Origin: a virus
Length of the DNA stretch: 25,523 nt
Virus record (IMG/VR): IMGVR_UViG_3300025889_000862
Span: 1-25,523 of that record
Strand: one strand, 5' to 3'
The notes beneath the pieces are model-generated. The model worked only from the letters and a program-made list of their open reading frames with translations. It ran no database searches and was not told where the DNA came from. Of the stretch, positions 3,188-17,911 are shown in pieces; the stretch's first letter is position 1; every line of letters begins with the position of its first letter. The translations under genes and the position numbers were made by a program.

Positions 3188-6100
3188 CTACACCTGTACA
3201 TTATCCTTAGAATCTAGCCTAGCTAATATTTGAGGAACGTAATCAGTAGTTTCCTTATAGACGTTTTTCATCTTCAGGCGCTTGCTGATTATGTCCCAGT
3301 TCTTCGTTCCAAATCGCTTAATCCAAGCACGGACAGCACCAGGGCCAGCATTATAGGCAGCAAGGGCTAGTTTTATGTCCTGGCCAAACATGTCGAACAT
3401 TTTAGATAAATAGTGCTTTCCAAATAGCTCTGATGTGGCTGGATCTTTTAAATCGTAATCTTCAATGCCAAGCTCTTTTGCGATTTCTTTAGCTGTATCT
3501 GGCATGATCTGAGCAAGGCCAGTAGCGCCCTTTGGACTTACCGCCCCAGGCTTGCCCCTAGATTCTTGATGAATCAGGGCTGGAAAAACTCGCTCAACTT
3601 CTGGATGTACATTCATATCTGTTACCGTGAAATCTCCCGTTAGATCCGCTGCATAGGGGCTTTTAGCGATGTCTTTTGGTGCATAGCCAACAGGCTGAAA
3701 CATCGCTGCTTTCCCAAGCATAGCCCTGCCAGCACTAGCAGTAGGATTATAAAGCGGTTGATTATTGGCTGTTTCATCTACTTTTTTTTTTGATTCCGAA
3801 TCGCTCGGCAAATCCCAACTATCTTCAAACGAAAAGTTATCTTTGTTATTTGCTTGCTGCGCTTGGAGCATCGCTTGCCTAAATTCGGGCGATCTTAAAA
3901 ATGCCTCTTGCTTGCCTGTGCTGAGAAGATAAGAAATCGGTCGGCCTATCCTGCTAGAATAGGAGGCCAGGGCAGTAGCTATTGCCATCAACTGTGCCTT
4001 CGGGCCACCAACGCCAGAAGCCTCTCCAACTGCTTGACCGAGGCTGGAGGCACCACCAACACCAGCAGCACCAGAGGTATAAAGCGACCGATTCATATTG
4101 CCAAGCAAGTCCTGTCCCATTGCGCCAGGCAATTTATTTGCCCAAGATTCTTGCAGACCAATAAGGTTGCGAACCTCAAGGCCAGCCTTCTTTATCTGCC
4201 CCTGCAATTTTCCAGGAATTAATCCAAGCTGCGCCATGTCATCAACTCTGGATTGAATCGCCATGCGAATATCATCAGCCAGGGCAGTCTTTGCATCGTC
4301 CCAACCAAGAACGCCTGGCTTGTAGTTTCTGTTTAATGCTCGCAATTCGCCAAGCAAATAAGAAAGCTGAGCGTTTTTGTTTTCAGGACTCTTTAAATCA
4401 GCCCTGATTCTATTTAGAATCGGCATTCCTGCATTTTCGATTGAGTTATTTACTTTTTCATCAGCCCCGCCCCTCTTGATAGCGGCGCTCAAGGAGCTAC
4501 CAATAATTGTAATTGGTTTTTTAGTTGCCTTATCGCCTTTGGCAACGATTTGTTCAACAAGCCGCAATCTTGGCTCAATTGAATCTTGGGCCTTTTGCAC
4601 AAAGCCAGACATCACAGCCTCATCACCTTGCATCAAGCTTACAGGGCTGATGCCATGCTCTCTCTCAATGATTTTTAGGCCATCAGTGAATCGCTGCTTG
4701 GCTTCTAGTACATCTGGAGCTTTTAATGATTTGGCAACACGCCGATAATCAACAGCACTGATTCCAATCATGCGCTTAAAGGTATCTGAAGCAGGGCCAG
4801 CCAGCTTTCCTGCGCCCTTCATTGCAGCATCAGCTACAGCAGAGAAAAGGGCTGCACCGGTTAAATCACTTGATTTTAATTCCTCGCCAGTTCCAACCTT
4901 AGAAGCACCAACCATTCCAGCTGCGGTGGCTGCTCTGGTTGCAATTCCAGTTGCGCCCTTAGCATTATAGGCCCCGCTGATTGCCTTTAGAATTTTTGGA
5001 GCATTCTGGGCTGCTTTGATTGGAGCAAATAGTTTATTAACTGGACTGAAAATTGCCCCAGTGAGCGTTCCAGCACCGGCAGCAATCGGGCTGTCTTTTG
5101 CCTCTTGCTCCATCTGGCCTTTTACAGCAGCCATTTCATCTGTGATTCTCTGCCCGAAATCTCTATTATCACCTACACCGAATAAATCTGCTGCTTCACC
5201 AGCAAGCGCCCTAGCACCGGCAGCTGCCCTTTGTGGAATTCCAAATAGACCAGTATTTAGTGCACTCTTGGTATAAACATCTGCCGATTTTAGGCCGCTG
5301 CTCAGAGCATCTAAAATGCCGCCGCCTTCAGCATTGCCTACTACTGCGCTGCCACTTGGGGCAGCACTGCCAGCAGCAGCCTCCTGCTCAACAGCCGCAC
5401 CGAGGTTAGACTCTGATGCTGTTTTTCCAGCCCCAGAGAAATCAAATTGCGAATAGGGGGTAATCTTTGCATTAGGAACTAATCTGCCCCCTTTTTTAAT
5501 CCAAAGAGGATTTGCCCTTTCATACTTAGACCAGAGCTTATCGGCCTGGGAAACAGAGCCACCACTATCCTGAACCATCTGCACAAAATCAGCATAGTCT
5601 CTGTTGCGCTCTCCGATTTGTCGAAGCCGCCGAGCCATTTCCTGATTAGTTGCAGTATCTTTATCAAGACCTGGGCCGCCCATTAGATAGGCTTTTGCCT
5701 CCATATCAGACTGTGAGCCTGAGCCAACTACGCGATTCATGCCCATTACAACGCCCTTCTTGGATTCTAGCATCTGGCCTAATGCAGCCCTTTGATTATC
5801 AAACCCAAGCAAGTCGCCAAGACCTAAATCAATGCTGGATTCTGCCAAGGCTTGCCCAAATCTTGCGCCGCGCCCAGGCTTGAGTCCTTCACCTAAAACT
5901 TGATCAACTGTATCTGCTAAATCAATCTGCTGTGCTGCCTTTGCTCTGATGTCTTCTAGCTTTTTAAATCCAGCTGCATTCGATTTCTTTTCATCTTCTA
6001 TCAAACCTCTTGCCCCTATTGCAGCCTGATTTGCACTCACTTCTGGATCTTGCATCAGCTCTCTAGTTAGCCGCTTCTGTTTTTCAACTAATGGCTCGAT

Positions 6101-6751
6101 TCCAAATTCATTCAGAACTGGCCCCTGCTGTACATCTGGCTCAGAAAGTCTTTCTTCTTGAGGCAGCACATTGCCCTCAGAGCCAGGAATAGCACCGGCT
6201 GCATTATTAGCCCCGCCCAATTGCTGCAATAGCGGCATAATGGCTGCTGCTTTTCTAGGATTCTTTACTAATTCCTCGAGTAGTTTCTGCTTCAAGGCCG
6301 ATTGGCTTCTGGCATCTTCAAGTGCCAAGGCTTGATTCAAATTAGACTGGGCTGCTGCTCTATCCTGGGCTGCTTTGTACTGCTCTTGCAGGGTAAAAAT
6401 GCCGCCAGCATTTCTTGCTGATCTAAATAGATTCGGGGGCAAGTATCCTGTATCTGGACTGTTCACGCCAAGCATGGCCTCACCAGTTTCTCTCTGGAAT
6501 CTATCAGTTAATTTATTCTGATAATTCTCGCCTATGCTGCTTAGGATTCCAGACAGCAGCCCAGAGCCAAGACCATACAGGGCCAGATCTCTGTTCTTAT
6601 ACCGGCCAGGAGTCTTTATTGCAGCCTCCTGCATATATTGGGTCAGTACTTCAGGAGTCGTCTGTAGCTGAAAATACGGATTCTCTGCCGCTATTTCATT
6701 CTGCGACTGCTGACTGACTAATCTAGCTGCTAATTCCTGAAGTGGGTCCAT
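3188..6751 (-). CDS. Internal virion/ejection protein with C-terminal lytic transglycosylase
   Basis: 1187 residues. The C-terminal 139 residues are a GH23/SLT-type transglycosylase: catalytic E1063 in LIHQESRG, then GATGLAQIMP (about 1076-1084), AAYNAGPG (about 1131-1138) and DYVPQIL. This domain cleaves peptidoglycan so DNA can pass during ejection. The remainder is Ala/Gly/Gln-rich and helical. A stretch around residues 480-650 is rich in small and hydrophobic residues, which could help membrane passage. The protein resembles T7 gp16 in role, although gp16 carries the enzyme at its N-terminus. An A10 run sits at codons 987-990. The ATG has AGGA nine bases upstream, in the end of the previous gene. 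Confidence 0.88.
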   Translation of the reverse strand: MDPLQELAARLVSQQSQNEIAAENPYFQLQTTPEVLTQYMQEAAIKTPGRYKNRDLALYGLGSGLLSGILSSIGENYQNKLTDRFQRETGEAMLGVNSPDTGYLPPNLFRSARNAGGIFTLQEQYKAAQDRAAAQSNLNQALALEDARSQSALKQKLLEELVKNPRKAAAIMPLLQQLGGANNAAGAIPGSEGNVLPQEERLSEPDVQQGPVLNEFGIEPLVEKQKRLTRELMQDPEVSANQAAIGARGLIEDEKKSNAAGFKKLEDIRAKAAQQIDLADTVDQVLGEGLKPGRGARFGQALAESSIDLGLGDLLGFDNQRAALGQMLESKKGVVMGMNRVVGSGSQSDMEAKAYLMGGPGLDKDTATNQEMARRLRQIGERNRDYADFVQMVQDSGGSVSQADKLWSKYERANPLWIKKGGRLVPNAKITPYSQFDFSGAGKTASESNLGAAVEQEAAAGSAAPSGSAVVGNAEGGGILDALSSGLKSADVYTKSALNTGLFGIPQRAAAGARALAGEAADLFGVGDNRDFGQRITDEMAAVKGQMEQEAKDSPIAAGAGTLTGAIFSPVNKLFAPIKAAQNAPKILKAISGAYNAKGATGIATRAATAAGMVGASKVGTGEELKSSDLTGAALFSAVADAAMKGAGKLAGPASDTFKRMIGISAVDYRRVAKSLKAPDVLEAKQRFTDGLKIIEREHGISPVSLMQGDEAVMSGFVQKAQDSIEPRLRLVEQIVAKGDKATKKPITIIGSSLSAAIKRGGADEKVNNSIENAGMPILNRIRADLKSPENKNAQLSYLLGELRALNRNYKPGVLGWDDAKTALADDIRMAIQSRVDDMAQLGLIPGKLQGQIKKAGLEVRNLIGLQESWANKLPGAMGQDLLGNMNRSLYTSGAAGVGGASSLGQAVGEASGVGGPKAQLMAIATALASYSSRIGRPISYLLSTGKQEAFLRSPEFRQAMLQAQQANNKDNFSFEDSWDLPSDSESKKKVDETANNQPLYNPTASAGRAMLGKAAMFQPVGYAPKDIAKSPYAADLTGDFTVTDMNVHPEVERVFPALIHQESRGKPGAVSPKGATGLAQIMPDTAKEIAKELGIEDYDLKDPATSELFGKHYLSKMFDMFGQDIKLALAAYNAGPGAVRAWIKRFGTKNWDIISKRLKMKNVYKETTDYVPQILARLDSKDNVQV
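3782..3791 (-). other. A10 homopolymer, possible slippage site inside the internal virion gene
   Basis: The coding strand has ten consecutive A, read TCA AAA AAA AAA G (Ser987-Lys990). One inserted A gives KKK-S-R-stop and one deleted A gives KKK-stop, so either slip ends the protein within two residues of the run (990 or 992 aa) and removes the transglycosylase. No assay evidence is available. Confidence 0.6.
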
Positions 6752-7390: not shown

Positions 7391-8874
7391 TAGTATATGC
7401 CTCCTTCCTCAAAAAATGCATCAAATCCTTGAATTGTAGCTATGCCATCGCTGGCAGCGCCCTCACGATCAAAAACAAAGGACAATCTTTTCCCGATTCC
7501 TGGCGGAGCGACTTCAAGCACTACCGGCGTTTGAGTTGAATTTGCCAGCGCAGGACTAACAGCAGTTACTTCAGAAGGACTGCTCGGATCTTCCAAGTCC
7601 TTACTGATGCTGGCTGTAATTGTGAAAGTTTTATCAGAGGCAGACAGGGTATTCACAGAGCCAAGAACTCTGATTAGCTTAGATTCCTTTACCAAGCTCT
7701 TGCCGAAATCGAAAAATGGAGTTTTCCAAACATAGCTGACAGCAGAGGAAGGACTTCCAGCCAAATCATAGCGGTATAAATCAGCCCCCCTGGATAGCAT
7801 CAACTGATCTTGAAATACTGCGATTTGCTCTAAGCCATCTGCATCATCTAGGAATGTCAGTCTGCTCCAAGCACCACGCTCATAATTTAGTACATAGACA
7901 TAATAGGTGCTTTGGTCAATTACGAATAAAAATGGGCGCTGATCACTGATGACCGGCCAGCCAGCACCGTTATACAATTCATCTTTGATTTTCCGAGACA
8001 GCGAATAATAGGAATCAGACCGCTGCTGATTCTGAATGACTGAGGAAATTGGAATCAGGCCCCGTTGCGTTCTGATGTAAACGTCATTGGAAACTTTCAC
8101 AAAAGATTGCGTATTTACTGGGGCTGGAATTTTACCCCTTGCGAGTAAGCCCCAAGTGGATGATCCTGGATAATCGCCCTGATAGATTAATATCTCTCCG
8201 CGGCTGCTTATAATCACCAGCAGATCTTCATTAGATAGTCCTTGGTTTACTGTCCAAGTAAACATTTGAAGAATGTAGCCACCGCTTTCAAAGAATGAGC
8301 CAACATCTACCTGAGTCCAAGTGCCACCAGCATCGCCAGCAAAGCCCAGTGGCCCGTACCAAAAGTAGGTTGCATTTTCTTCCATGAGATAGAGTCTGCC
8401 CTTATAGCCTAGCGGCATCTTTAAATTCTGGTAGACCATGCCAGAGCCGGTGCCGGTAAAATCAGAAACAGAAGCAGCTGTTCCGTTCCAAACTCTAGGA
8501 GTATCTGCGCCGTTAACAAGCACGACCTTGTTATTGAACTGGCAAGCAATCCAGGCATTAGAACTGACAGCAGTTGCATTTGTTCTGTCTGTTTTCGATC
8601 CGGTAGGTGAAGAAATACTATAGAGCTTTTGTCCGGCAGCGATTAAGCAGCCGCGATTGCCGACATCATAGGTATAAATCATTCCGATATTTCCAGCTGA
8701 ATAGGTTTCTACCCCCTGGATTCCAGATCCTTGCGTGATGCCGTAATCGTATATGAAATAATTATCCAGCTGTCTAGCTTCTGTTGCCTTTATCTCTGTA
8801 GGTGGAGCAATGAGATTCAGCCCATCAATAGGCGGTGGCACAAAAACATTTCTGGCATTTCTCGGTTTGCTCAT
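7390..8874 (-). CDS. Tail nozzle / DNA-stabilization protein, P22 gp10 or T7 gp12 type
   Basis: 494 residues, rich in beta strands throughout. It opens with a segment typical of this class (PPPIDGLNLIAPPTEIKATE), then repeated short blades such as GYKGRLYLMEENATYFWYG, VSNDVYIRTQRGLIPI and FLFVIDQSTYYVYVLNYE with G-A-W-S-R. These repeats fit the beta-propeller of podoviral tail nozzles, which plug the portal channel after packaging and form the tail tip. The length suits P22 gp10 (about 470 aa) better than T7 gp12 (about 790 aa). It is placed after the adaptor and a Gly/Ala-rich protein. The stop of the upstream gene lies one base before its ATG. Confidence 0.75.
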   Translation of the reverse strand: MSKPRNARNVFVPPPIDGLNLIAPPTEIKATEARQLDNYFIYDYGITQGSGIQGVETYSAGNIGMIYTYDVGNRGCLIAAGQKLYSISSPTGSKTDRTNATAVSSNAWIACQFNNKVVLVNGADTPRVWNGTAASVSDFTGTGSGMVYQNLKMPLGYKGRLYLMEENATYFWYGPLGFAGDAGGTWTQVDVGSFFESGGYILQMFTWTVNQGLSNEDLLVIISSRGEILIYQGDYPGSSTWGLLARGKIPAPVNTQSFVKVSNDVYIRTQRGLIPISSVIQNQQRSDSYYSLSRKIKDELYNGAGWPVISDQRPFLFVIDQSTYYVYVLNYERGAWSRLTFLDDADGLEQIAVFQDQLMLSRGADLYRYDLAGSPSSAVSYVWKTPFFDFGKSLVKESKLIRVLGSVNTLSASDKTFTITASISKDLEDPSSPSEVTAVSPALANSTQTPVVLEVAPPGIGKRLSFVFDREGAASDGIATIQGFDAFFEEGGIY

Positions 8875-8875
8875 A

Positions 8876-9994
8876 TTACTTTACCGCCAGCAGTCCTCCA
8901 GGCTTCTTTGCTTGGTCAATCTTGCCCCAATCAATATCAATCGTGCCGTGATGCTCTCGTACTGCACCGGCATCAAGAGCTTCTTTAGCAAGCCGCCGCC
9001 GTTCTTCTTCATTGAATTTGCCGAACCAGTCATTGCCGTACTTTTCGCCGAAAGCTGAATAGCCCCAGATGTCTTCAGGGTTCAGGTCCGCTTCATTTCT
9101 GCTTTGGGCAAATTTTACATTACCGCCATTGGCCTGTGCTTCTGCCACTAGCTGCTCTTTGCTTCTACCTCCTGATAGCTGTGGCTGCCTCGAGGCATAA
9201 TCAGCCCATCCAGCCACATCGCCGAGCTTGCTAAGGCGCTTGCCCTCAGTTTTCCACATATCTTTGTCGCCCATCTTATTTATCAGAGCTGCAATTGCAG
9301 GAACGCCAATTGTGGCTGCAACGCCCCAAGGCCCAAGCGCATACCCGAGCTGATTAGCGCCAAGAACACCGCCCAAACCGCCAAGTCCTGCTGTAAATGG
9401 ATCGCCCTTCTTAATGCCTTGATAAGCGCCATAGGCCCCAAGGCCAAGGCCAGCAGCGCCAGCCAGGTTTCCGGCCGTAGATCCTACAGTAAATAGGCCA
9501 CCAGGAGCGCCTTCAGCAGCATCTCCTACGTTCATTGCAGTTTCTCTGCCTAGAACCGAATTAAGGGCAGCACCAGATTCGGTCAATGGCCCCTGTAATG
9601 CTGTACTAACAGCAGGGGCCGCACTTCCGGCAGCCTGGGCAGCAGCAGAAGCACCGCTGGCAATACTATTTGCAGCCTCAGCACCGCCCTGACCTAAGCC
9701 GAGCAGCCCGAGACCTTCCTTAGCCCCTATGCTTGCTATTGTAGGGGCAGCGGCAGCTATGCCAATTGGCAGTAAAGACTCTCCAAGGCTAGGTGGAGTT
9801 ACCGGCTTTTCAACTAGCCCTTCTTCTTGGTATCTTTCTAAAGTCGATTTCGGATTCTGATAATACTTATCCGTGTACGGATCATAGATGAATCCAGGCT
9901 GTTCGCCGTACTTTTCATAATTAGCGCCAACGAACGGGTACTTTCTTCGCGAATCAGCGCCACGACCAGGATTATAACCAGCTATGCTTGGCAT
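8876..9994 (-). CDS. Gly/Ala-rich internal virion (ejection) protein
   Basis: 372 residues from the ATG that overlaps the adaptor stop as TAATG, with GGGA six bases upstream. An in-frame TTG at 10006 would add four residues but is less likely. A soluble aromatic N-terminus (about 1-60) leads to a very Gly/Ala/Leu-rich central region (about 75-240: IGIAAAAPTIASIGAK, LAGAAGLGLGAYGAYQ, GLGGLGGVLGANQ) that is hydrophobic enough to insert into membranes. A charged C-terminus follows (NEEERRRLAKEALDAG). This composition is typical of podoviral ejection proteins that form a conduit through the envelope. No enzymatic motif was seen. Confidence 0.68.
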   Translation of the reverse strand: MPSIAGYNPGRGADSRRKYPFVGANYEKYGEQPGFIYDPYTDKYYQNPKSTLERYQEEGLVEKPVTPPSLGESLLPIGIAAAAPTIASIGAKEGLGLLGLGQGGAEAANSIASGASAAAQAAGSAAPAVSTALQGPLTESGAALNSVLGRETAMNVGDAAEGAPGGLFTVGSTAGNLAGAAGLGLGAYGAYQGIKKGDPFTAGLGGLGGVLGANQLGYALGPWGVAATIGVPAIAALINKMGDKDMWKTEGKRLSKLGDVAGWADYASRQPQLSGGRSKEQLVAEAQANGGNVKFAQSRNEADLNPEDIWGYSAFGEKYGNDWFGKFNEEERRRLAKEALDAGAVREHHGTIDIDWGKIDQAKKPGGLLAVK

Positions 9995-10881
9995 TATATG
10001 TCCCAACTCCCATAAGGCACTCTATATCTGGGCCTAGCGCCCTTGCCGGTAAAGCTCCCGACATAGGGGCCAGTCCATCTTGATTTTGCCATGTTTAACA
10101 TTCTAGCGTAACCAGCATTCAGATCCTCGTACTCAAGGCCCTTGGCTTGCTTAATTCTCCACTTCAAGCCAGCAATCACCAGATCATCATCAAAGATGCA
10201 CAAGTCTGAATCAGCTAGAATTGTTTCGTAGGGCGAATCATAATAGGCCCAATGCGCAGTGCCGTCTGTAATATCTGAGGCAGTGGAGCTTGTGGGATTG
10301 CTTGCTGCTGAGGTGCCGGTAGTAATACAGCGATAATTGTATCCGTTCACGTTCACATAATCAGTGCCAGAGGTATAAGAAGTCGATGCCGCCCAGTCTT
10401 TCGGTTTGAATAAATTAGATGAAACGTATTCCATGTATAGAGGCAACCCGCTTGCTGATGGAATTGGATGGATATGAAACTGCCCCGATTCATCAGAGCT
10501 TGGATTGCTATCAGAGCCAAAGATTCTGTAAATATATTCAGTGGTAGATCCGCCAGGGCCATAAAGATAATAGGCCATGTCCTCATCAGATACGGGGCCA
10601 ATTAGCAAATCTTCTGTATCCGTATTTATCTGCGTTCCCATTAGTGCAGAATAATAATCCTTGGGCAATTGATACCGGTACCGCCCTGATGTAATGGAAA
10701 TAGAATAAGTTTTTTTCTGCTGCGGGAACACTCTCTGATTTCTAAGCGCACGGCACTCTGCATAAAGCAAATGCTTCAGCTGAAGTACTGCGGAATCAGT
10801 AGAGGCAGCCATCGCAGTAGGGGCTGGATGCCCTATCTCATAACATGCTGCTTGAACTAGCTCTAAAACTGTTTTGCTCAT
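9994..10881 (-). CDS. Head-tail adaptor (T7 gp11 / P22 gp4-like) with inserted binding domain
   Basis: 295 residues. The helical N-terminus (LELVQAACYEIGHPAP, LLYAECRALRNQRVFPQQ), the strand pair around RYRYQLPKDYYSAL, and the late helix LVIAGLKWRIKQAKGLEY match podoviral adaptors that ring the portal and carry the nozzle. Inserted at about 163-214 is a compact module with the W-x4-Y-x2-G ... Y-x-C-x-T-x-GTS ... W pattern (W163, Y182, C185, W211). It is widespread in phage tail and head proteins and resembles carbohydrate-binding folds. Gene order supports the adaptor call: small virion gene before, ejection and nozzle genes after. The ATG is one base after the previous stop. Confidence 0.75.
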   Translation of the reverse strand: MSKTVLELVQAACYEIGHPAPTAMAASTDSAVLQLKHLLYAECRALRNQRVFPQQKKTYSISITSGRYRYQLPKDYYSALMGTQINTDTEDLLIGPVSDEDMAYYLYGPGGSTTEYIYRIFGSDSNPSSDESGQFHIHPIPSASGLPLYMEYVSSNLFKPKDWAASTSYTSGTDYVNVNGYNYRCITTGTSAASNPTSSTASDITDGTAHWAYYDSPYETILADSDLCIFDDDLVIAGLKWRIKQAKGLEYEDLNAGYARMLNMAKSRWTGPYVGSFTGKGARPRYRVPYGSWDI

Positions 10882-10882
10882 A

Positions 10883-11272
10883 CTATGGCTTGTACATAAT
10901 ATAGAAAAGATTCAAATAAATGTTGTTCGTTGCCACGTCGACGGTTAGCGAAGTATTAACCGATGTCTCAAAATAGCCGCTATCAACTATAGGAAGATAA
11001 AGGGCGTCGGCGTTTGTATTTGGCGGAATCAGTGCCTGAAAAAGGTCTGCTGCCGTTCCGTCTTCAAAAAGAACATAGGCCAGCGCCGCAGCAGCGGATT
11101 GGATAAACATGCCCATCACACGGAACTTGTGAGAAGTACTAGGCAGAATGCTGGCGTTTAGAAGCACCGTATCATTGGCAACACCTACGACTTGGGTTAG
11201 GCAGTAAACTTTACAAGCCTCGCCATTAACCTCGTATTTCCTTGGGGGGTCGATTGGGATTTGTGGGGCCAT
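10883..11272 (-). CDS. Small beta-rich virion protein, attachment or decoration type
   Basis: 129 residues, beta-strand rich, with no membrane segment. The pattern HKFRVMGMFIQSAAAALAYV, FEDGTAADL, a P-x-V-x-S-G turn and a closing NIYLNLFYIMY strand resembles the single beta-sandwich modules common in phage head- and tail-bound accessory proteins. No signal peptide is present, unlike the gene upstream. GGA lies six bases before the ATG, and a 57-base gap separates it from the preceding gene. It ends one base before the adaptor gene. A virion role is inferred from fold type and position. Confidence 0.62.
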   Translation of the reverse strand: MAPQIPIDPPRKYEVNGEACKVYCLTQVVGVANDTVLLNASILPSTSHKFRVMGMFIQSAAAALAYVLFEDGTAADLFQALIPPNTNADALYLPIVDSGYFETSVNTSLTVDVATNNIYLNLFYIMYKP

Positions 11273-11329
11273 TCATATCCGTTACGTTTTATGTTCCGAC
11301 TTCGGCCTTATCGCCATGTGGTGCTCCGA

Positions 11330-12676
11330 TTACTTATAGGTAATATTAATAAGCTGCTCGCTGGCTGCGGTCGAAGTGTTGTCTGCGTCGGTTATGCCGG
11401 TGACAATGCAATAGCCGATTCCTGTACCAAAGTTCATGCCGACTGGAAATTGAATTGTTTGACAGCCGCCAGTAGTTCCGCCCGGTATCGCAACTCGCAG
11501 GACTGGAGTATCGGTTCCACAGGTCGGAGCTGACGCCTTATTGTAGAGCTTTAAGTATCTAGCCGCTGCGTTGATATTACACGCATTAACTGAATAGACC
11601 GTTCCAGCAGTCGCTTTGAGGTTTGTCGAGTTGTTTGAAGCGGCAGAAATAATACTCGTTGATAACGCGCCACCGCTGGCTCCAGCCATCGGCTGAACGT
11701 AGATGCCGCCGTTGTTGTTGCTGATTAATGCCGAATAGTCTCCGTCAGTTGATGTATTGTTGTCTGTAGCAATAGCATCGGCCCTTTTTGATAGTATAGC
11801 TACTCCAGCATCGGCGTTTGCGCTTGCGGTGTCCTCCTGCTTTAGTAGTGATGACGCTGCATTTTTTTGAGTCCAGAAGTTAATATCGGCAATCGTGGCT
11901 CCATAGGTGTTAACTGCCATTGGAGTATAATCTCCGACTGCGTTGGATAGGTTTGTCTGGGTAGTTACATCTATCGCGACACCTAAATTTTGCACACCCG
12001 CATCACCTGATGTGTGTGCATTATCTTCGCTCCTCGGTAGTCCCGCGGTTGGCGAAATTAGCAGATAGCCCTGCGGGTCTGTTGCAATCGGAGTATAGTC
12101 ACCTTCTGCGGCAAGCGTATTTCTATTTGCGTTGGCCACGGCCAAACTCATCACGCCATACGCCGTACTCGCATGAACCGCATCCTCCTGCTGGAACAAA
12201 TTACTCCCATCGCCGCCAGATTTAGGAACAACAACAACGCCACCCGCGCTATCTAGCTGCGGAGACATCACCCGCCCGAAATAGAACAGGTCGGCCACGT
12301 TTGGCGTATTGCGTAGCGGTGGCGAAATTGTAAACGAGTTAGTAGAGGTCGAAGTAACGTAACCCATGCCAGCACGAGCAGTTGAGCTAGGCCCAAACAT
12401 TACCCAATCGCCAACTTTTACAGAATGGGCAGTTGCGTTAATTGTGGTCGTAGTACTACCAGCCTCAGCATTATCATTGCCGCCATTAACAAACCCGCTA
12501 AACGGAGCCTGTTCCATCTGCTGTCCAAATCTATCCGTGGAAAGTGCAGTCGAAGTGCCAGCTACAGTCGCCAGTGCCTTGTTTGCCTCATTGTTGATTG
12601 CGGGATTCTGCCCCATGGCAAAAACCGGAAACAAAACTAGCGCCAGGAGGCTTGCAATTTTACTTTTAATGTTCAT
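11330..12676 (-). CDS. Exported repeat-containing fibre/adhesin-like protein
   Basis: 448 residues. The N-terminus is a Sec signal peptide: K4 and K6, hydrophobic core ASLLALVLFPVFA, and a predicted cut AMG|Q23. A small beta domain follows (about 80-120), then three repeats that begin with an Glu-Asp (164, 217, 281) and carry a GDYTP or GDYS motif (192, 248, 312). The C-terminal domain (about 345-448) has the RYLKLYNKASAPTCGT ... TPVLRVAIPGG ... GIGYCIVTG pattern of beta-sandwich tips seen in many phage head-fibre or decoration proteins. Upstream lies an intrinsic terminator, and the ATG has no visible Shine-Dalgarno but a T-rich leader. Whether the protein ends in the virion, periplasm or cell surface is not decidable here. 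Confidence 0.72.
   Translation of the reverse strand: MNIKSKIASLLALVLFPVFAMGQNPAINNEANKALATVAGTSTALSTDRFGQQMEQAPFSGFVNGGNDNAEAGSTTTTINATAHSVKVGDWVMFGPSSTARAGMGYVTSTSTNSFTISPPLRNTPNVADLFYFGRVMSPQLDSAGGVVVVPKSGGDGSNLFQQEDAVHASTAYGVMSLAVANANRNTLAAEGDYTPIATDPQGYLLISPTAGLPRSEDNAHTSGDAGVQNLGVAIDVTTQTNLSNAVGDYTPMAVNTYGATIADINFWTQKNAASSLLKQEDTASANADAGVAILSKRADAIATDNNTSTDGDYSALISNNNGGIYVQPMAGASGGALSTSIISAASNNSTNLKATAGTVYSVNACNINAAARYLKLYNKASAPTCGTDTPVLRVAIPGGTTGGCQTIQFPVGMNFGTGIGYCIVTGITDADNTSTAASEQLINITYK
11693..12187 (-). repeat. Three protein-level repeats in the exported fibre-like gene
   Basis: Three units of 53-64 residues, each starting with Glu-Asp, followed by a G-V-x-x-L segment and a GDY-(T/S)-(P/A) motif, then a short Gly-containing turn. 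They are diverged at DNA level, so they are old rather than recently amplified. Similar units occur in other phage accessory structural proteins as far as I recall. Confidence 0.65.
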
Positions 12677-12690
12677 ATCAATCTAACAAA

Positions 12691-12726
12691 ATAAAAAAGG
12701 AGCGCGGGTTAGGGTTCCCGCGCCCC
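12691..12726 (-). terminator. Intrinsic terminator between the two exported fibre-like genes
   Basis: On the minus strand a 10-bp stem (GGGGCGCGGG pairing with CCCGCGCTCC, one G-U pair) closes an 8-base loop and is followed by TTTTTTATTTTG. This is a textbook rho-independent terminator 44 bases after the upstream stop codon. Only about 16 bases separate its T run from the next ATG. Confidence 0.85.
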
Positions 12727-12770
12727 AGGGTCAAGTGTGTCCGTCAGTATGGAGAACATTGTCATTTTGT

Positions 12771-13991
12771 TTACGAGCAAATAATCGCGTTTGAGGCTGT
12801 GGCGTAACAAACGTGAACCACAATGCCAGTAACTAAAGTGCAAGCTGCATCTGCCGCGCCGCCGTTACAGGTGCCGCCTGATACCGCATAGACTTTAGGA
12901 ACGCCCGCTGTAGTGCTTAACAGGAAGTGAACATCGCCAGCAGTAAGAGATGGGAACTTCCAGCCCACTGTGCCGTTAGCGCCAGTGATCTGGTGGAACA
13001 TCTTAGAAGCGCTTAAAGCTGCGGCATCTGCTACCGTGGTGCCAGCTCCTGCTACGGCTTCGACGTTGGTCGAAACATTGAGCACGTTTGTGGGAAGCTG
13101 TAGAGCACTGGTCGTAATCACAGCAGCGTTCACTCCAGCCACCGTGAAAATATGGCCGTCTCCAGTCCCAGCGTTATAAGTAATATCAGATCCGCCGCTG
13201 ACCTCCTCTCCTGGCAAGGTGATAGATGCGCCTCTAGTGCCGCCATCAGCGCCACCGCCAGCGAGGATTAGGCTGCTATCGTCGTCGCCGTCGGAAGTGG
13301 AGGCCCTAATCGTAAGCTGCTGTACTGCTGTTGTTCCACCGTCACCGAAAGTTAAAGAAAGGGCGGTATCCGATGCGGCTGCAAATGTGAGCAGCCGATT
13401 GGAATCCTGTGCCCCATAAACTATTAGCGAATCGACAGGAAGTATCTGCACATCTGCGCCGCTTGCGCTGCCAGAGCTTAAGTTTAGATTTCCAGTTGAA
13501 GTTGCCTCATTGCCGTATAGTTGAATATATGCGCCGCGTGATGCACTGACTGAGCCGCCAGCAGTTAGCTGGAGAACTGAATCGTCGTCAGCATCTGAAG
13601 TAGACGCAGATACCGTTAGGATTTGCGCCGCCGTAGTACCAGCATCGCCGAACTTCATAGCCAAAGCCGTATCGCTTGCAGCGGTGAAGCTAATCAATCG
13701 GCTAGCATCATCCTCAAGCTGCAAGATAAGCTCATCAGAAGCGCTGGAGTTGATTACGGTGTTGTCGGAGGCATCAACTTTAATCAGGTTAATGTCAGCT
13801 GAATTAGCTGCGTTTCTGCCCTTAATGTAAGCGTTGTTCGTCGCAACAGAGCCAGCTGGCAGCAGAGTAGAAATATAATCAGCAAGTTCTGAGCGCATAC
13901 CCAGACCAACTAAATCATTTGCAACTGTTTGCCCGTGTGCAGCAGTGCTAAGTCCTAAAACTAATCCGATTGTCAATAGGAGTTTTTTCAT
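12771..13991 (-). CDS. Exported repeat-containing fibre/adhesin-like protein
   Basis: 406 residues. It starts with a clean Sec signal peptide: KK, core LLLTIGLVLGLSTA, predicted cut AHG|Q21. The mature part is low in Lys/Arg and rich in Ser, Ala, Asp and Gly. Two long repeats cover about 98-182 and 199-282, each with the series LxFxAASDTAL, FGD-GGTTA, STSD-DDDS and a Gly-rich end. The acidic DDDS loops could bind calcium. The C-terminal part (about 325-406) has four cysteines, plausible disulphides in an oxidising compartment. AAGGA lies nine bases before the ATG. An intrinsic terminator follows the stop. It is likely a surface or virion appendage protein; receptor or function unknown. Confidence 0.7.
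   Translation of the reverse strand: MKKLLLTIGLVLGLSTAAHGQTVANDLVGLGMRSELADYISTLLPAGSVATNNAYIKGRNAANSADINLIKVDASDNTVINSSASDELILQLEDDASRLISFTAASDTALAMKFGDAGTTAAQILTVSASTSDADDDSVLQLTAGGSVSASRGAYIQLYGNEATSTGNLNLSSGSASGADVQILPVDSLIVYGAQDSNRLLTFAAASDTALSLTFGDGGTTAVQQLTIRASTSDGDDDSSLILAGGGADGGTRGASITLPGEEVSGGSDITYNAGTGDGHIFTVAGVNAAVITTSALQLPTNVLNVSTNVEAVAGAGTTVADAAALSASKMFHQITGANGTVGWKFPSLTAGDVHFLLSTTAGVPKVYAVSGGTCNGGAADAACTLVTGIVVHVCYATASNAIICS
13146..13397 (-). repeat. Second copy of the 85-residue repeat in the exported protein
   Basis: Residues 199-282. It shares AASDTAL, GTTA and STSDGDDDS with the first copy at residues 98-182 (13446-13700), with a period of 101 residues. Confidence 0.68.
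13446..13700 (-). repeat. First copy of the 85-residue repeat in the exported protein
   Basis: Residues 98-182, containing AASDTALAMKFGDAGTT and STSDADDDS. The paired copy is at 13146-13397. Confidence 0.68.
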
Positions 13992-14015
13992 CTTTAGCTT
14001 TCCTTCCTTCTATCC

Positions 14016-14372
14016 TTAAACAGCCTCATCACCAATTGATTGAACCGGCAGTGGCTCAACTTCTACCTTTACTTCTACTGCCACCGGCTCTGGCTCAACT
14101 GGCTTAGAGATAAAAACCTTTTTTCCTGGTTCTGCTTTTGCTTCTGCAAATAGAGCATCCTTGTCGGCCTCTAATAGAGCATCGAACTCAGCTACCTCTT
14201 TCGGGTTCTGCTTTCTAATGTCCTCATCAATATGGCCTTCCTGAATCAGCTTCGGCCTTAGTTGACCGGCACCGTCTACGACTACATCTTCAGACTCGAA
14301 TTTATAAAATTCTTTAATCTGAAGTAGCCCGTTGGCGCACTTTTCAGCTTGAATATAAAATTGCTTCTGCAT
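14016..14372 (-). CDS. Unknown small acidic protein
   Basis: 118 residues with no family recognised. The N-terminus (MQKQFYIQAEKCANGLLQIK) looks like a short beta-helix domain. The middle is helical and charged, with NPKEVAEFDALLEADKDALF, and the C-terminus is a Pro/Glu/Val stretch (PVEPEPVAVEVKVEVEPLP) that is probably extended or disordered. Its ATG overlaps the stop of the AT-hook-like gene as TAATG, so the two are likely translated together. A 24-base gap separates it from the exported fibre gene downstream. A role in head completion is possible from position only. Confidence 0.6.
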   Translation of the reverse strand: MQKQFYIQAEKCANGLLQIKEFYKFESEDVVVDGAGQLRPKLIQEGHIDEDIRKQNPKEVAEFDALLEADKDALFAEAKAEPGKKVFISKPVEPEPVAVEVKVEVEPLPVQSIGDEAV

Positions 14373-15172
14373 TATTCGTCTTCCTCAATTTCATCTAGCA
14401 TTGCTTCGATGTCAGCATGTTGCTCGGCTGTAGCTTTCTTAGGTCTGCCCCTGCCTCGCTTCTCTGAAGTTTTTGCAGTTCCATTTACCCGTTCAGAAAG
14501 TGCTTCAAGTTTTGCAAATGCATCTTCAAGCGACCGCTGTAGCTGTGCATTAGTTTGCTTCAGCTGAACGATTTCATCAGTGGTTTCTTTGATATGCTCC
14601 ATTGGAGCCTCGCGATTAACAAAAGCGATTGCTTTGCGATAAAGCTCAACAAACCGCTTTGGAAATCTGCCTTCGATTCTATCAGCAGGAGCCGAGGCAA
14701 GCTGATGAACAGTCCAGAAACCTTCGCTATTTAGTGTTTTAATTTCTCCGCTGCTGGCTTCATTCCATCGCTCAAATGGCAAGCCCTGATTTCCAAGGCC
14801 AGCCTTCCAGCGCAGATAAGCCTCTTTGTAAAGGCCACCAACGCATTCTCCGAGCTTATTGAATTTCAATAGCTGTGGAGGCAAAAATCTAACTCTTTCT
14901 ACGATTCTATTCTTCTTATCTTTTGTCCACTCAATCATCTCAATCGGATCTGTCATCAGCATATCTGCTGCTTCAGATTTGATTTTGTTTTCTTCATCGT
15001 GGATATAAAACCGAAAAGCAACGCCCTTATCATATCCAGCTAGTTCAAAGCTGGTAACAGATGCGCCCTGACCTTGATTGATTGTCTTTGCAACGATTCC
15101 CTGCCGAGCCAGATCTTCCCTCGCTTGAGCTGGCAGTGGAAATTGATCTAAGAAATTTAACGGACTTGTCAT
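14372..15172 (-). CDS. Phage protein with coiled coil and AT-hook-like C-terminal motif
   Basis: 266 residues. A mixed alpha/beta N-terminal domain (about 1-125) is followed by a segment in the style of GFWTVHQLASAPADRI (about 151-166). That segment resembles the 'TvEqLA' helix pair found in a phage protein family encoded near capsid genes. A coiled coil at about 195-230 (VQLKQTNAQLQRSLED) leads to KRGRGRPKK (238-246), an AT-hook-type minor-groove motif, and an acidic tail ending EIEEDE. The tail may offset or mask the basic motif. The gene begins a new segment after the capsid-cassette terminator, with GGGGA two bases before the ATG. DNA binding is inferred from the motif alone. Confidence 0.62.
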   Translation of the reverse strand: MTSPLNFLDQFPLPAQAREDLARQGIVAKTINQGQGASVTSFELAGYDKGVAFRFYIHDEENKIKSEAADMLMTDPIEMIEWTKDKKNRIVERVRFLPPQLLKFNKLGECVGGLYKEAYLRWKAGLGNQGLPFERWNEASSGEIKTLNSEGFWTVHQLASAPADRIEGRFPKRFVELYRKAIAFVNREAPMEHIKETTDEIVQLKQTNAQLQRSLEDAFAKLEALSERVNGTAKTSEKRGRGRPKKATAEQHADIEAMLDEIEEDE

Positions 15173-15186
15173 TTTCCCCTATCTCC

Positions 15187-15212
15187 AAAAAAGGGGGCCA
15201 TTGCTGGCCCCC
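15187..15212 (-). terminator. Intrinsic terminator after the capsid/decoration genes
   Basis: On the minus strand a perfect 8-bp stem GGGGGCCA/TGGCCCCC closes a GCAA tetraloop (GNRA type) and is followed by TTTTTT. It begins seven bases after the stop of the decoration-like gene. This is a very strong rho-independent terminator that would cap high-level capsid transcription. Confidence 0.9.
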
Positions 15213-15218
15213 ATCCTA

Positions 15219-15710
15219 TTAGTCATGAGCCATGATCACGCCAGCGGTAAGGATACCAGAGGCAACAATCGTAACTCTTGTGCTTGTTACACCAGCATCA
15301 ATAGTTTTTACACCATCCAAAACGAATGATGAGCTATTAGTGCCAGGAATTCCGGCATTGGCCGTGGTGTAAAGAATATCGGTAGCAGCAAAGCTGTTTT
15401 CGATAATTGCTTCAAATTCACCGTAGCCAACAAAGAACCAGCCGTAATAGTTATCAGTACCATCGCGGCAAGCGATTCCTATATTTTTCCAGTTTGTGCC
15501 CGGAGTACCGCAGAGGGCAGTAGTCATCGGTGTGCAATCATAAGTTGAATCGGTGGAGATAATGCTCCAGCGACCAGCTGTATGTGCGCCGTTGTACTGT
15601 CCGTAGCGATATTGTCTTCCGAGAACGTCTACATAAAGCGATCCGACCTTGCACAGAGGTGTTGAACTCTGTGAAAGTAAATCGAATGCCATTGCCTGTT
15701 GTCCAGCCAT
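15219..15710 (-). CDS. Probable capsid decoration protein
   Basis: 163 residues, beta-rich, no membrane segment. It lies directly after the major capsid gene with a strong AGGAG nine bases before the ATG, and before a strong terminator, so it probably shares the high expression of the capsid. Features include an N-terminal LYVDVLGRQYRYGQYN strand pair, GWFFVGYGEFEAII, and a C-terminal section VLDGVKTIDAG ... TRVTIVASG, reminiscent of small head-decoration proteins. It has four cysteines (positions about 19, 59, 67 and 82). The decoration role is inferred from position, size and composition; direct family identity was not established. Confidence 0.68.
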   Translation of the reverse strand: MAGQQAMAFDLLSQSSTPLCKVGSLYVDVLGRQYRYGQYNGAHTAGRWSIISTDSTYDCTPMTTALCGTPGTNWKNIGIACRDGTDNYYGWFFVGYGEFEAIIENSFAATDILYTTANAGIPGTNSSSFVLDGVKTIDAGVTSTRVTIVASGILTAGVIMAHD

Positions 15711-15729
15711 GTTTTTATTCTCCTATTCT

Positions 15730-16734
15730 TTAGTCAAAACCTACCCAGCAGCGTTTTGCAAAAGCGCCGATGGTGCAAGTTGCCATAGTGAACATGAGCC
15801 GTGATACAGCAGCCTGATCATTTGCATTTACAGGCTCAAGCATGTCGAACTCAGCTTTCTTATGGAATACAATGTTGAATCCACCTTCTTCTACGTTCAA
15901 CAGATACGTTCTAGTAGCTGTCTGTGTGCTGAAGCCGGAGTAGTTAATACCTCCAGATAGGTACATTGGGATTCCGCGATAGTAGATCTTATTATGACCT
16001 ACTCTTGCAGTGTCTTTTTCATGCGTAATCATCTGAAGCGCACGAGTTGAAGAACTCAAAAAGCCCCAGTGAGTCTGGCCCAAAAGACCAAGCTGCACAG
16101 TCGGCATTGAATTAATCATCGTGGCATCAATTCCTTGATCCAGGAATCGAGTTACGTTACCAGCATCAACAGATCCATCAGACCATGAAGATGCAGTATT
16201 GAAGGCTTGGTTTCTAAACCAAACAGCATCAGAGCTTGCTCGGTTAATGCCGCCAACGGTTCCAGTAGTAGGAGTTGTTGAAACGTGCGATGCCAAGCCA
16301 GCCATCTGCAAGCCGCCAGAGCCGGTACCGGCAGATAGAACGCCTTCATGGAATTTGTTCATCTGGGTTGACTCAAGCACTTTAAATTTGCTTGAAATGA
16401 TTGGGATATACTGCTCTGGGCCATCATTCTGATACTGTTCAGCCAGGGTGAATACAACCGAACCAAGCAGGTAAAACCAGCTAAATTCAGCAGCATCTAG
16501 GATATTCTGGTCTGTTAATGCAACAGCCCCAGATGGTCCTACCCAGTCTACGGTATCGTTCTGATCCGAGAGTGCTTCTTCTACCACGGAGCGACCACCA
16601 GAGACGCGACGAACGCCTCCGTGTTCTTCCATGTGCTTAATGACCGGCAAGTTGTCGCGAACGGCATCTTTTGCCTTTTTGCTTCTACGTCTGCCAGTCG
16701 CGGTGACTAATTGTCCTAAACCTACGTCTGCCAT
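15730..16734 (-). CDS. Major capsid protein, HK97-fold type
   Basis: 334 residues. The order scaffold, capsid, decoration is classical. Internal features fit HK97-fold capsid proteins of podovirus/siphovirus type: a basic N-terminal arm (GRRRSKKAKDAVRDN), a long spine-like helix region (IISSKFKVLESTQMNKFHEG), a central turn GTVGGINRASSDAVWFRNQA followed by the P/A-domain-like part, and a C-terminal beta sheet (RTYLLNVEEGGFNIVFH). The GGINR-x-W-x-R-N pattern is frequent in this class. The scaffold stop is seven bases upstream, and AGGA lies ten bases before the ATG. No protease gene or cleavable delta domain was seen, so maturation likely relies on a separate scaffold, as in P22. Confidence 0.85.
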   Translation of the reverse strand: MADVGLGQLVTATGRRRSKKAKDAVRDNLPVIKHMEEHGGVRRVSGGRSVVEEALSDQNDTVDWVGPSGAVALTDQNILDAAEFSWFYLLGSVVFTLAEQYQNDGPEQYIPIISSKFKVLESTQMNKFHEGVLSAGTGSGGLQMAGLASHVSTTPTTGTVGGINRASSDAVWFRNQAFNTASSWSDGSVDAGNVTRFLDQGIDATMINSMPTVQLGLLGQTHWGFLSSSTRALQMITHEKDTARVGHNKIYYRGIPMYLSGGINYSGFSTQTATRTYLLNVEEGGFNIVFHKKAEFDMLEPVNANDQAAVSRLMFTMATCTIGAFAKRCWVGFD

Positions 16735-16741
16735 GTATTAT

Positions 16742-17911
16742 TTATCCTCGTAATAATTCCTCCAGGGCTATTCGAGCAGATTGCTCTGGAGTTTCGTTTG
16801 CTGATACAGCAATTTCAGATTTTGTCGCTGGCATTGCTTGACTTGTTCTGCCACGCACTGAAACAGGCTGGATCACTCTATTTTGTGATTGATTATTACC
16901 GGCAACGAGTCTGGTTTGATTAAGTCCGTTGGAATTTCCTTCAGAATAGGGCTTACCGGTTAAATCTGCCCAGGCTTTTTTTAGTGCCTGTGCTGCGGTA
17001 ATGCCAGGAATAGTTCCAAGGTACGCAGAAACCAGTGGTTCTGTGCGCCTGAGAAAATCGCCATCATGTAGTTCAGGGTATTTGTACTGACCTACGGCGT
17101 TCTTCTCATTCACTACTGTTTCAAATTCTGAAACAGTTTTAGCTACTGCCTCCTGCTCTTGCTGTTGTTTGGCTGTAGCTTTTTCGGATTCTATGGCATT
17201 TAGTCTCTTTTGCAAAGCCAGAAACTCAGGGTGCCCTGAAATATTTGCCAGCTGGCCCTGACTTGGCGCTCCATCATCATCAGCAAGAGTTTCTAAGTTA
17301 ATCTCTAAATCATTCGCAAGTGCTTTAAATGCCGCAACTTTTGTTTTTGGATCTGTAAGTTTTTGCTGCGCTGCGCAAAGTGCAGCAAGGCCAGCAGAGA
17401 GAGTGAACCCCCGTTCTGCAAACACACCGGCAAAGGGCTGCACGGCTTCTTTTATCGCCCTGGTTTCTTGTAATTCTCTCGATAGTTCTTGCTGCGTTCT
17501 TGTAAAGTGCGCTTGATGCTCTTTGAACATCCTAGCAACAGCTGGCTTAAGCTGCTTGGGTAGCTTGTTAAAAAGCTCCTTTTCCTTGGCGCTTAATCGC
17601 TGCGGTGGTTCAAAATCAGCTGAATCTGGCTGCTGTTGCTGCGCTTGGGCTTCAGTTCTAACTACCTTTACTTGCTTTTCATCAGACTGGCCCTCGGTGG
17701 CTGGGGCGTCTTCTGATTGCGCACTTTTATCCCCATCAATCGCGTTTTTCTTGAGTTCTTCAAGCGCTGCCCTAGCTGACTGTTCAGGCGTTTCATCTTT
17801 GGCTGGCTCCTCTTTGGCTAAATTTTTAGCATCTTCAACAATGGCATCAACTTCAGATGCTTCATCTTCTATTGTACCTTCATTTTCTAATACGGACTCT
17901 TGATTTTCCAT
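16742..17911 (-). CDS. Scaffolding protein with duplicated ETPEQSAR motif
   Basis: 389 residues, strongly acidic N-terminus and Gln/Ala/Glu/Lys-rich helix throughout, immediately before the major capsid gene: this is a procapsid scaffold by composition and order. A long charged coiled coil spans about 100-160 and about 230-260 (QKRLNAIESEKATAKQQQEQ). The motif ETPEQSAR-x-ALEEL occurs at residues 40-53 and again at 373-386, at the very C-terminus. C-terminal helices of scaffolds are the usual capsid-binding element, so a second N-terminal copy is unusual. The start overlaps the preceding gene by 25 bases, with AGAGGA two bases before the ATG. Confidence 0.78.
   Translation of the reverse strand: MENQESVLENEGTIEDEASEVDAIVEDAKNLAKEEPAKDETPEQSARAALEELKKNAIDGDKSAQSEDAPATEGQSDEKQVKVVRTEAQAQQQQPDSADFEPPQRLSAKEKELFNKLPKQLKPAVARMFKEHQAHFTRTQQELSRELQETRAIKEAVQPFAGVFAERGFTLSAGLAALCAAQQKLTDPKTKVAAFKALANDLEINLETLADDDGAPSQGQLANISGHPEFLALQKRLNAIESEKATAKQQQEQEAVAKTVSEFETVVNEKNAVGQYKYPELHDGDFLRRTEPLVSAYLGTIPGITAAQALKKAWADLTGKPYSEGNSNGLNQTRLVAGNNQSQNRVIQPVSVRGRTSQAMPATKSEIAVSANETPEQSARIALEELLRG
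16754..16795 (-). repeat. C-terminal copy of the scaffold ETPEQSAR motif
   Basis: Residues 373-386, ETPEQSARIALEEL. It matches residues 40-53 at 13 of 14 positions, though 11 of 14 codons differ. Confidence 0.85.
17753..17794 (-). repeat. N-terminal copy of the scaffold ETPEQSAR motif
   Basis: Residues 40-53, ETPEQSARAALEEL. The paired copy is at 16754-16795. Confidence 0.85.

Follow-up and report, generated by a model that had tools for sequence, protein, structure and literature searches.

A ten-A run before the transglycosylase domain of a phage ejection-type protein, probably a tolerated source of slippage rather than a selected switch

Slippage in described systems and probable slippage at the phage locus

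Bacterial RNA polymerases are documented to slip on runs of at least nine A, with truncated proteins among the products (PMC1088944, PMC5009743), and the literature thus agrees with the first-pass annotation of the DNA studied here, which had referred to slippage of this kind. In E. coli and Buchnera, transcriptional insertions increase exponentially as the run becomes longer (PMC5574713), and in an E. coli cell-free system three AAA codons are already enough for ribosomes to slide (PMC4363877). The closest described system is T. thermophilus dnaX, where an A9 run lies seven-eighths of the way through the gene and about half of the product is short by slippage (PMC1088944, PMC5009743). In Shigella flexneri, slippage within the coding DNA of spa33 and mxiA leads to truncated products (PMC5009743), as was proposed for the phage gene described here, and spa13 is listed with an A10 run (PMC6260861), the same run length as in our case. 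For the protein itself, T7 gp16 offers a counterpart, being likewise a large internal podovirus protein that carries a lytic transglycosylase domain. T7 can do without this domain under ordinary conditions (PMC1796659, PMC8954989), and infection by T4, T7, PRD1, and phi6 does not depend on their virion murein hydrolases (PMC1796659).

The run that we analyzed lies in a stretch of 25,523 nucleotides of viral DNA, hereafter the window (IMG/VR virus record IMGVR_UViG_3300025889_000862, positions 1 to 25,523), which carries a structural gene set on its minus strand. Family searches with Pfam and PHROG supported a large terminase subunit, a portal, a tail protein, a tail-tube-type protein, and a protein with an SLT domain, and the gene order matches that of syntenic relatives. 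A search of the window for PHROG 5880 gave no match, an empty answer that shows little. The features relevant to the run are the following.

3188..6751, minus strand: putative internal virion (ejection-type) protein of 1187 aa with a C-terminal SLT transglycosylase domain (open reading frame list, Pfam/PHROG, location behind the tail-tube-type gene, shared with relatives)
5432..6751, minus strand, boundary approximate: N-terminal part with homology to gene A, a distinct upstream gene in relatives (phmmer, residues 198-428 against gene A of L176, E=3e-10)
3626..3850, minus strand: predicted disordered linker with the A10 run, residues ~968-1042 (AlphaFold2 model, pLDDT <50)
3782..3791, minus strand: A10 run, S987-K988-K989-K990 (TCA AAA AAA AAA), read from the sequence
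3778..3780, minus strand: TAG directly behind the run after loss of one A, for a 990-aa product ending KKK, read from the sequence
3774..3776, minus strand: TGA after gain of one A or a -1 ribosomal shift, for a 992-aa product ending KKKSR, read from the sequence
3299..3592, minus strand: predicted SLT transglycosylase domain, residues 1054-1151 (PF01464, 98.7 bits against a cut-off of 21.3; pLDDT ~95-97 over most of it)

Ten T on the plus strand at 3782-3791 correspond to ten A on the coding strand, from the third base of S987 through K990 (codons TCA AAA AAA AAA GTA within the open reading frame 6751..3188). The run sits at 83% of the gene length and is the only homopolymer of at least eight bases in the window. 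Past the run, TAG follows after 0 codons and TGA after 2 codons in the two slipped frames, and both slipped products, of 990 and 992 aa, end before the SLT domain. The ten-A run at Ser987-Lys990, the stops in both slipped frames, and the loss of the peptidoglycan-cleaving domain by either slip had all been described in the first-pass annotation. Each was borne out, the PF01464 match lying past both stops; the run, its frames, and its place relative to the domain are direct observations.

Like T. thermophilus dnaX, the window gene thus combines a sense-strand run of at least nine A late in the gene with nearby stops in both frames and a C-terminal truncation. However, the tau and gamma products of dnaX have known roles and about half of the product is short, whereas in the window we infer slippage, and the homologues are without the run. 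The Shigella type III secretion genes, too, differ in being bacterial and backed by published evidence, whereas the window gene is a phage virion gene described from its sequence alone. In contrast to T7 gp16, whose enzyme domain is N-terminal, the SLT domain of the window protein is C-terminal, so that a late truncation would remove only the enzyme.

The ejection-type gene and its relatives

The 1187-aa product carries a predicted SLT transglycosylase (peptidoglycan-cleaving) domain, as its match to PF01464 lies above the curated cut-off (E=2.1e-28), and the Glu-Ser of the SLT motif is invariant across 21 aligned proteins. We modeled residues 781-1187 with AlphaFold2 on the basis of 21 sequences, and the overall confidence was modest (pLDDT 66, pTM 0.41). 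In the model, the linker before the domain had a pLDDT below 50 at model residues 188-222 and 224-262 and was devoid of secondary structure at 191-245, with K988-990 in its middle at a pLDDT below 40. According to this model, a cut at residue 990 would take away the enzyme and leave the upstream domains. Two syntenic proteins, of 699 and 711 aa (L184:13795-15894 and L185:14307-16442), have no SLT domain. PF01464 found no match in the whole records of L184 and L185 (35 and 38 kb, which may be fragments), while the same search did match in L176, L092, and L179. The SLT domain therefore seems to come and go in this phage group, judging from these records. The existence of SLT-less relatives and the position of the run in a disordered linker make an SLT-less form of the window protein plausible.

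In all 29 relatives with the SLT domain towards the C-terminal side, and also in L176, the equivalent protein is encoded by two adjacent genes, A (333-511 aa in the relatives) and B (579-1082 aa), which in most cases share 1 or 4 bases or lie within a few bases of each other; the pair in L176 encodes 457 and 731 aa. Against the window protein, profile searching with the full set of gene A and gene B proteins proved too weak, and the matches came from single-sequence phmmer: in addition to the gene A match listed above, the open reading frame beyond residue 440 matched gene B of L157 (E=2.5e-6). The codon-position GC pattern along the open reading frame gave no sign of a break in frame. Considering the separate genes in the relatives, the phmmer matches, and the unbroken GC pattern, the window gene is best interpreted as an A-B fusion. 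Alternatively, the single open reading frame may come from an assembly indel at the A/B junction.

Syntenic relatives were gathered by scans with alignments of the SLT and tail proteins. We compared 33 distinct homologues, all from loci with a gene for a tail-tube-type protein, and skipped two further homologues to which the motif pattern did not fit. Over the 90 codons preceding the SLT motif, the longest A run of these homologues was 3-5, and it was 8 anywhere in the open reading frame. Whether homologues keep the A run had been put forward as a check, and the answer was negative: none of the 33 had an A run longer than five before the SLT domain and none had KKK in the linker there, all of them being ~23-34% identical to the window protein over the run region. 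L176, the nearest relative by its neighboring genes, is ~27% identical in this part. Single-protein scans detected no closer relative, whether viral contigs were queried with the full-length protein and its C-terminal part or genome contigs with the full-length protein and 73 residues encoded by the gene at 8876-10006. A length-tolerant pattern retrieved no second copy of the A10 site from IMG/VR, and a near-identical contig (L001) stops at window position 8711, short of the run. Residues 1-989 had no match in the phage collection, and the whole-protein matches in this collection covered the SLT domain only. The top match, MT837616, is a short SLT protein of the secreted type and occurs in an unrelated setting.

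Because these 33 homologues have neither an A run longer than five before the SLT domain nor KKK in the linker, the A10 run does not look ancestral. A recent lineage-specific use may be compatible with the data, the comparison having reached only homologues that are ~23-34% identical.

Chance expectation and avoidance of A runs

We also asked how unusual the arrangement is. Stops in both shifted frames occur within 60 codons for 99.4% of the positions in the gene and within 2 codons for 2.8%. The stops in both frames, to which the annotation had drawn attention, are thus present, but they carry little weight as evidence, and nearly any slip upstream of the SLT domain would remove the domain. 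A 45-aa hydrophobic open reading frame in another frame (MKQPIINRFIILLLVLAGLCLG..., window 3640-3777, minus strand) has its ATG right behind the TAG that is reached after the loss of one A. It was rejected as a reason for the arrangement, as the window genes hold 28 out-of-frame open reading frames of at least 40 aa, 7 of which are hydrophobic.

Under the codon usage of the window, in which AAA makes up 47% of the lysine codons, a KKK tripeptide consists of AAA codons only with P ~0.10. Synonymous redraws yielded a run of at least ten A in 2.5% of cases for the gene and in 11% for all window genes. In the coding DNA of related phages, long A runs were far rarer than expected: 1 run of at least nine A was observed versus 21.75 expected (Poisson P ~8e-9; ~20-fold avoidance) and 0 of at least ten versus 5.1 expected, in 1,429 distinct genes (1.60 Mb of coding DNA) of related loci. 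Likewise, none of the 83 KKK tripeptides in 1,506 genes was all-AAA, versus 13.6 expected; in both counts, some loci are not syntenic with the window and entered solely through their SLT domain. This avoidance, a direct observation as is the lack of conservation, agrees with the published selection against A/T runs, which is evident from nine bases in many bacteria (PMC1088944). It suggests that such runs carry a cost, either in expression, in replication, or in both. The A10 run of the window is a real exception to the avoidance in its group, tested post hoc on a run that a reader had picked. The violation of a rule that the relatives obey so strictly (0/83 for KKK) could hint at selection for the run.

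Explanations for the A10 run

We consider it the best explanation, with a probability of about 0.62, that the A10 run is a slippage-prone, lineage-specific site which is tolerated rather than selected as a switch and gives rise to a leaky SLT-less by-product. The run would have arisen in the lineage of the window, inside the disordered linker of the ejection-type virion protein. By analogy with other bacteria, RNA polymerase would slip on it, and ribosomes sliding on AAA AAA AAA would add to this slippage. The slips would probably produce a minor, unregulated share of a 990-992-residue protein without the SLT domain. The run could persist here where truncation costs little, the upstream domains being left intact and virion peptidoglycan hydrolases being often dispensable. 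Slippage at the run, its level, and its low cost are inferred. Even if merely tolerated, the run would provide a natural test of the slippage load that a virion gene can bear, and the site stands out as a test case for slippage tolerance because the phage group otherwise shuns such runs about twentyfold.

Programmed transcriptional slippage of the T. thermophilus dnaX type would instead set the ratio of forms with and without the SLT domain, so that only some of the virion copies carry the enzyme. The anatomy is the same as in T. thermophilus dnaX, with the A10 run 83% of the way through the gene, in a linker that immediately precedes a whole domain; moreover, the run breaks the strong avoidance rule of the relatives, and SLT-less relatives do exist (L184, L185). 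Nevertheless, we regard programming as unlikely: the A run or KKK is kept in 0/33 homologues, the stops are uninformative, and no stimulating structure was found by folding against shuffled sequences. RNA structure was no better than in the shuffles either downstream (z 0.96 and -0.26) or upstream of the run (z -0.08). We rejected a 4-bp hairpin (CCGA/TCGG) just upstream of the run as a slippage stimulator, as it folds no better than the shuffles and is far weaker than the stimulator in a Roseiflexus IS element, a 6-bp GC stem (PMC5009743). The same three points leave the claim that the phage sets its enzyme dose by slippage unsupported. In its strictest form, namely that a podovirus uses transcriptional slippage on the A10 run to set how many peptidoglycan-cutting ejection proteins each virion receives, at a fixed ratio of full-length to SLT-less protein, the claim appears distinctly unlikely. 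Were slippage to yield enzyme-less ejection protein in a set proportion, this would be a rare example among phages of virion make-up being tuned by the polymerase slipping.

The slips of the polymerase, the ribosome, and the replication machinery would lead to a nearly identical short protein. With replication slippage, a hypermutable run would throw off SLT-less variants, either as phase variation or as mutational load. An A10 run is prone to this, run avoidance alone cannot separate the two causes (PMC1088944), and the SLT-less relatives suggest that such variants could live. However, the length-tolerant pattern found no second copy of the site in IMG/VR and L001 ends at 8711, so that no polymorphism was seen, and we hold this account to be quite improbable.

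A programmed -1 shift of the ribosome at A_AAA_AAA on the model of E. coli dnaX, assisted by stimulators and leading to the 992-residue product, is very improbable. The two sites share a slippery A stretch, a stop soon after the -1 shift, and a shorter product. E. coli dnaX uses A_AAA_AAG with stimulating signals, whereas none were found at the run in the window: inspection at the usual upstream spacing revealed no Shine-Dalgarno-like hexamer, and there was no stem-loop better than the shuffles. The window heptamer is in the right phase (TCA AAA AAA), TGA is reached two codons on, and ribosomes are able to slide on AAA repeats (PMC4363877), but the site is not conserved in the 33 homologues, and unstimulated sliding is already part of the tolerated, leaky run that we favor.

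The assembled run length is hardly likely to be wrong, although homopolymers are a common place of indel errors and a single contig covers the site, because ten A keep the frame open into an intact SLT domain, so that a change of 1 or 2 bases would break the gene. The errors that would escape notice are limited to one of 3 bases or an overlooked A-to-G difference.

Two minor observations concern the rest of the window. The protein encoded at 7390-8874 matches PHROG 5107, which is labeled amidase. In annotated phages, the homologous proteins go by the names tail tubular B or phage stabilization protein (P22 gp10-like), and the amidase label is therefore probably wrong. IMG/VR contig 3300006917_000161 (23133 bases; L001, L175) is 99.99% identical to the window over the 8164 bases compared (window 8711-16874); it should pass the end of the window and could extend the genome upstream.
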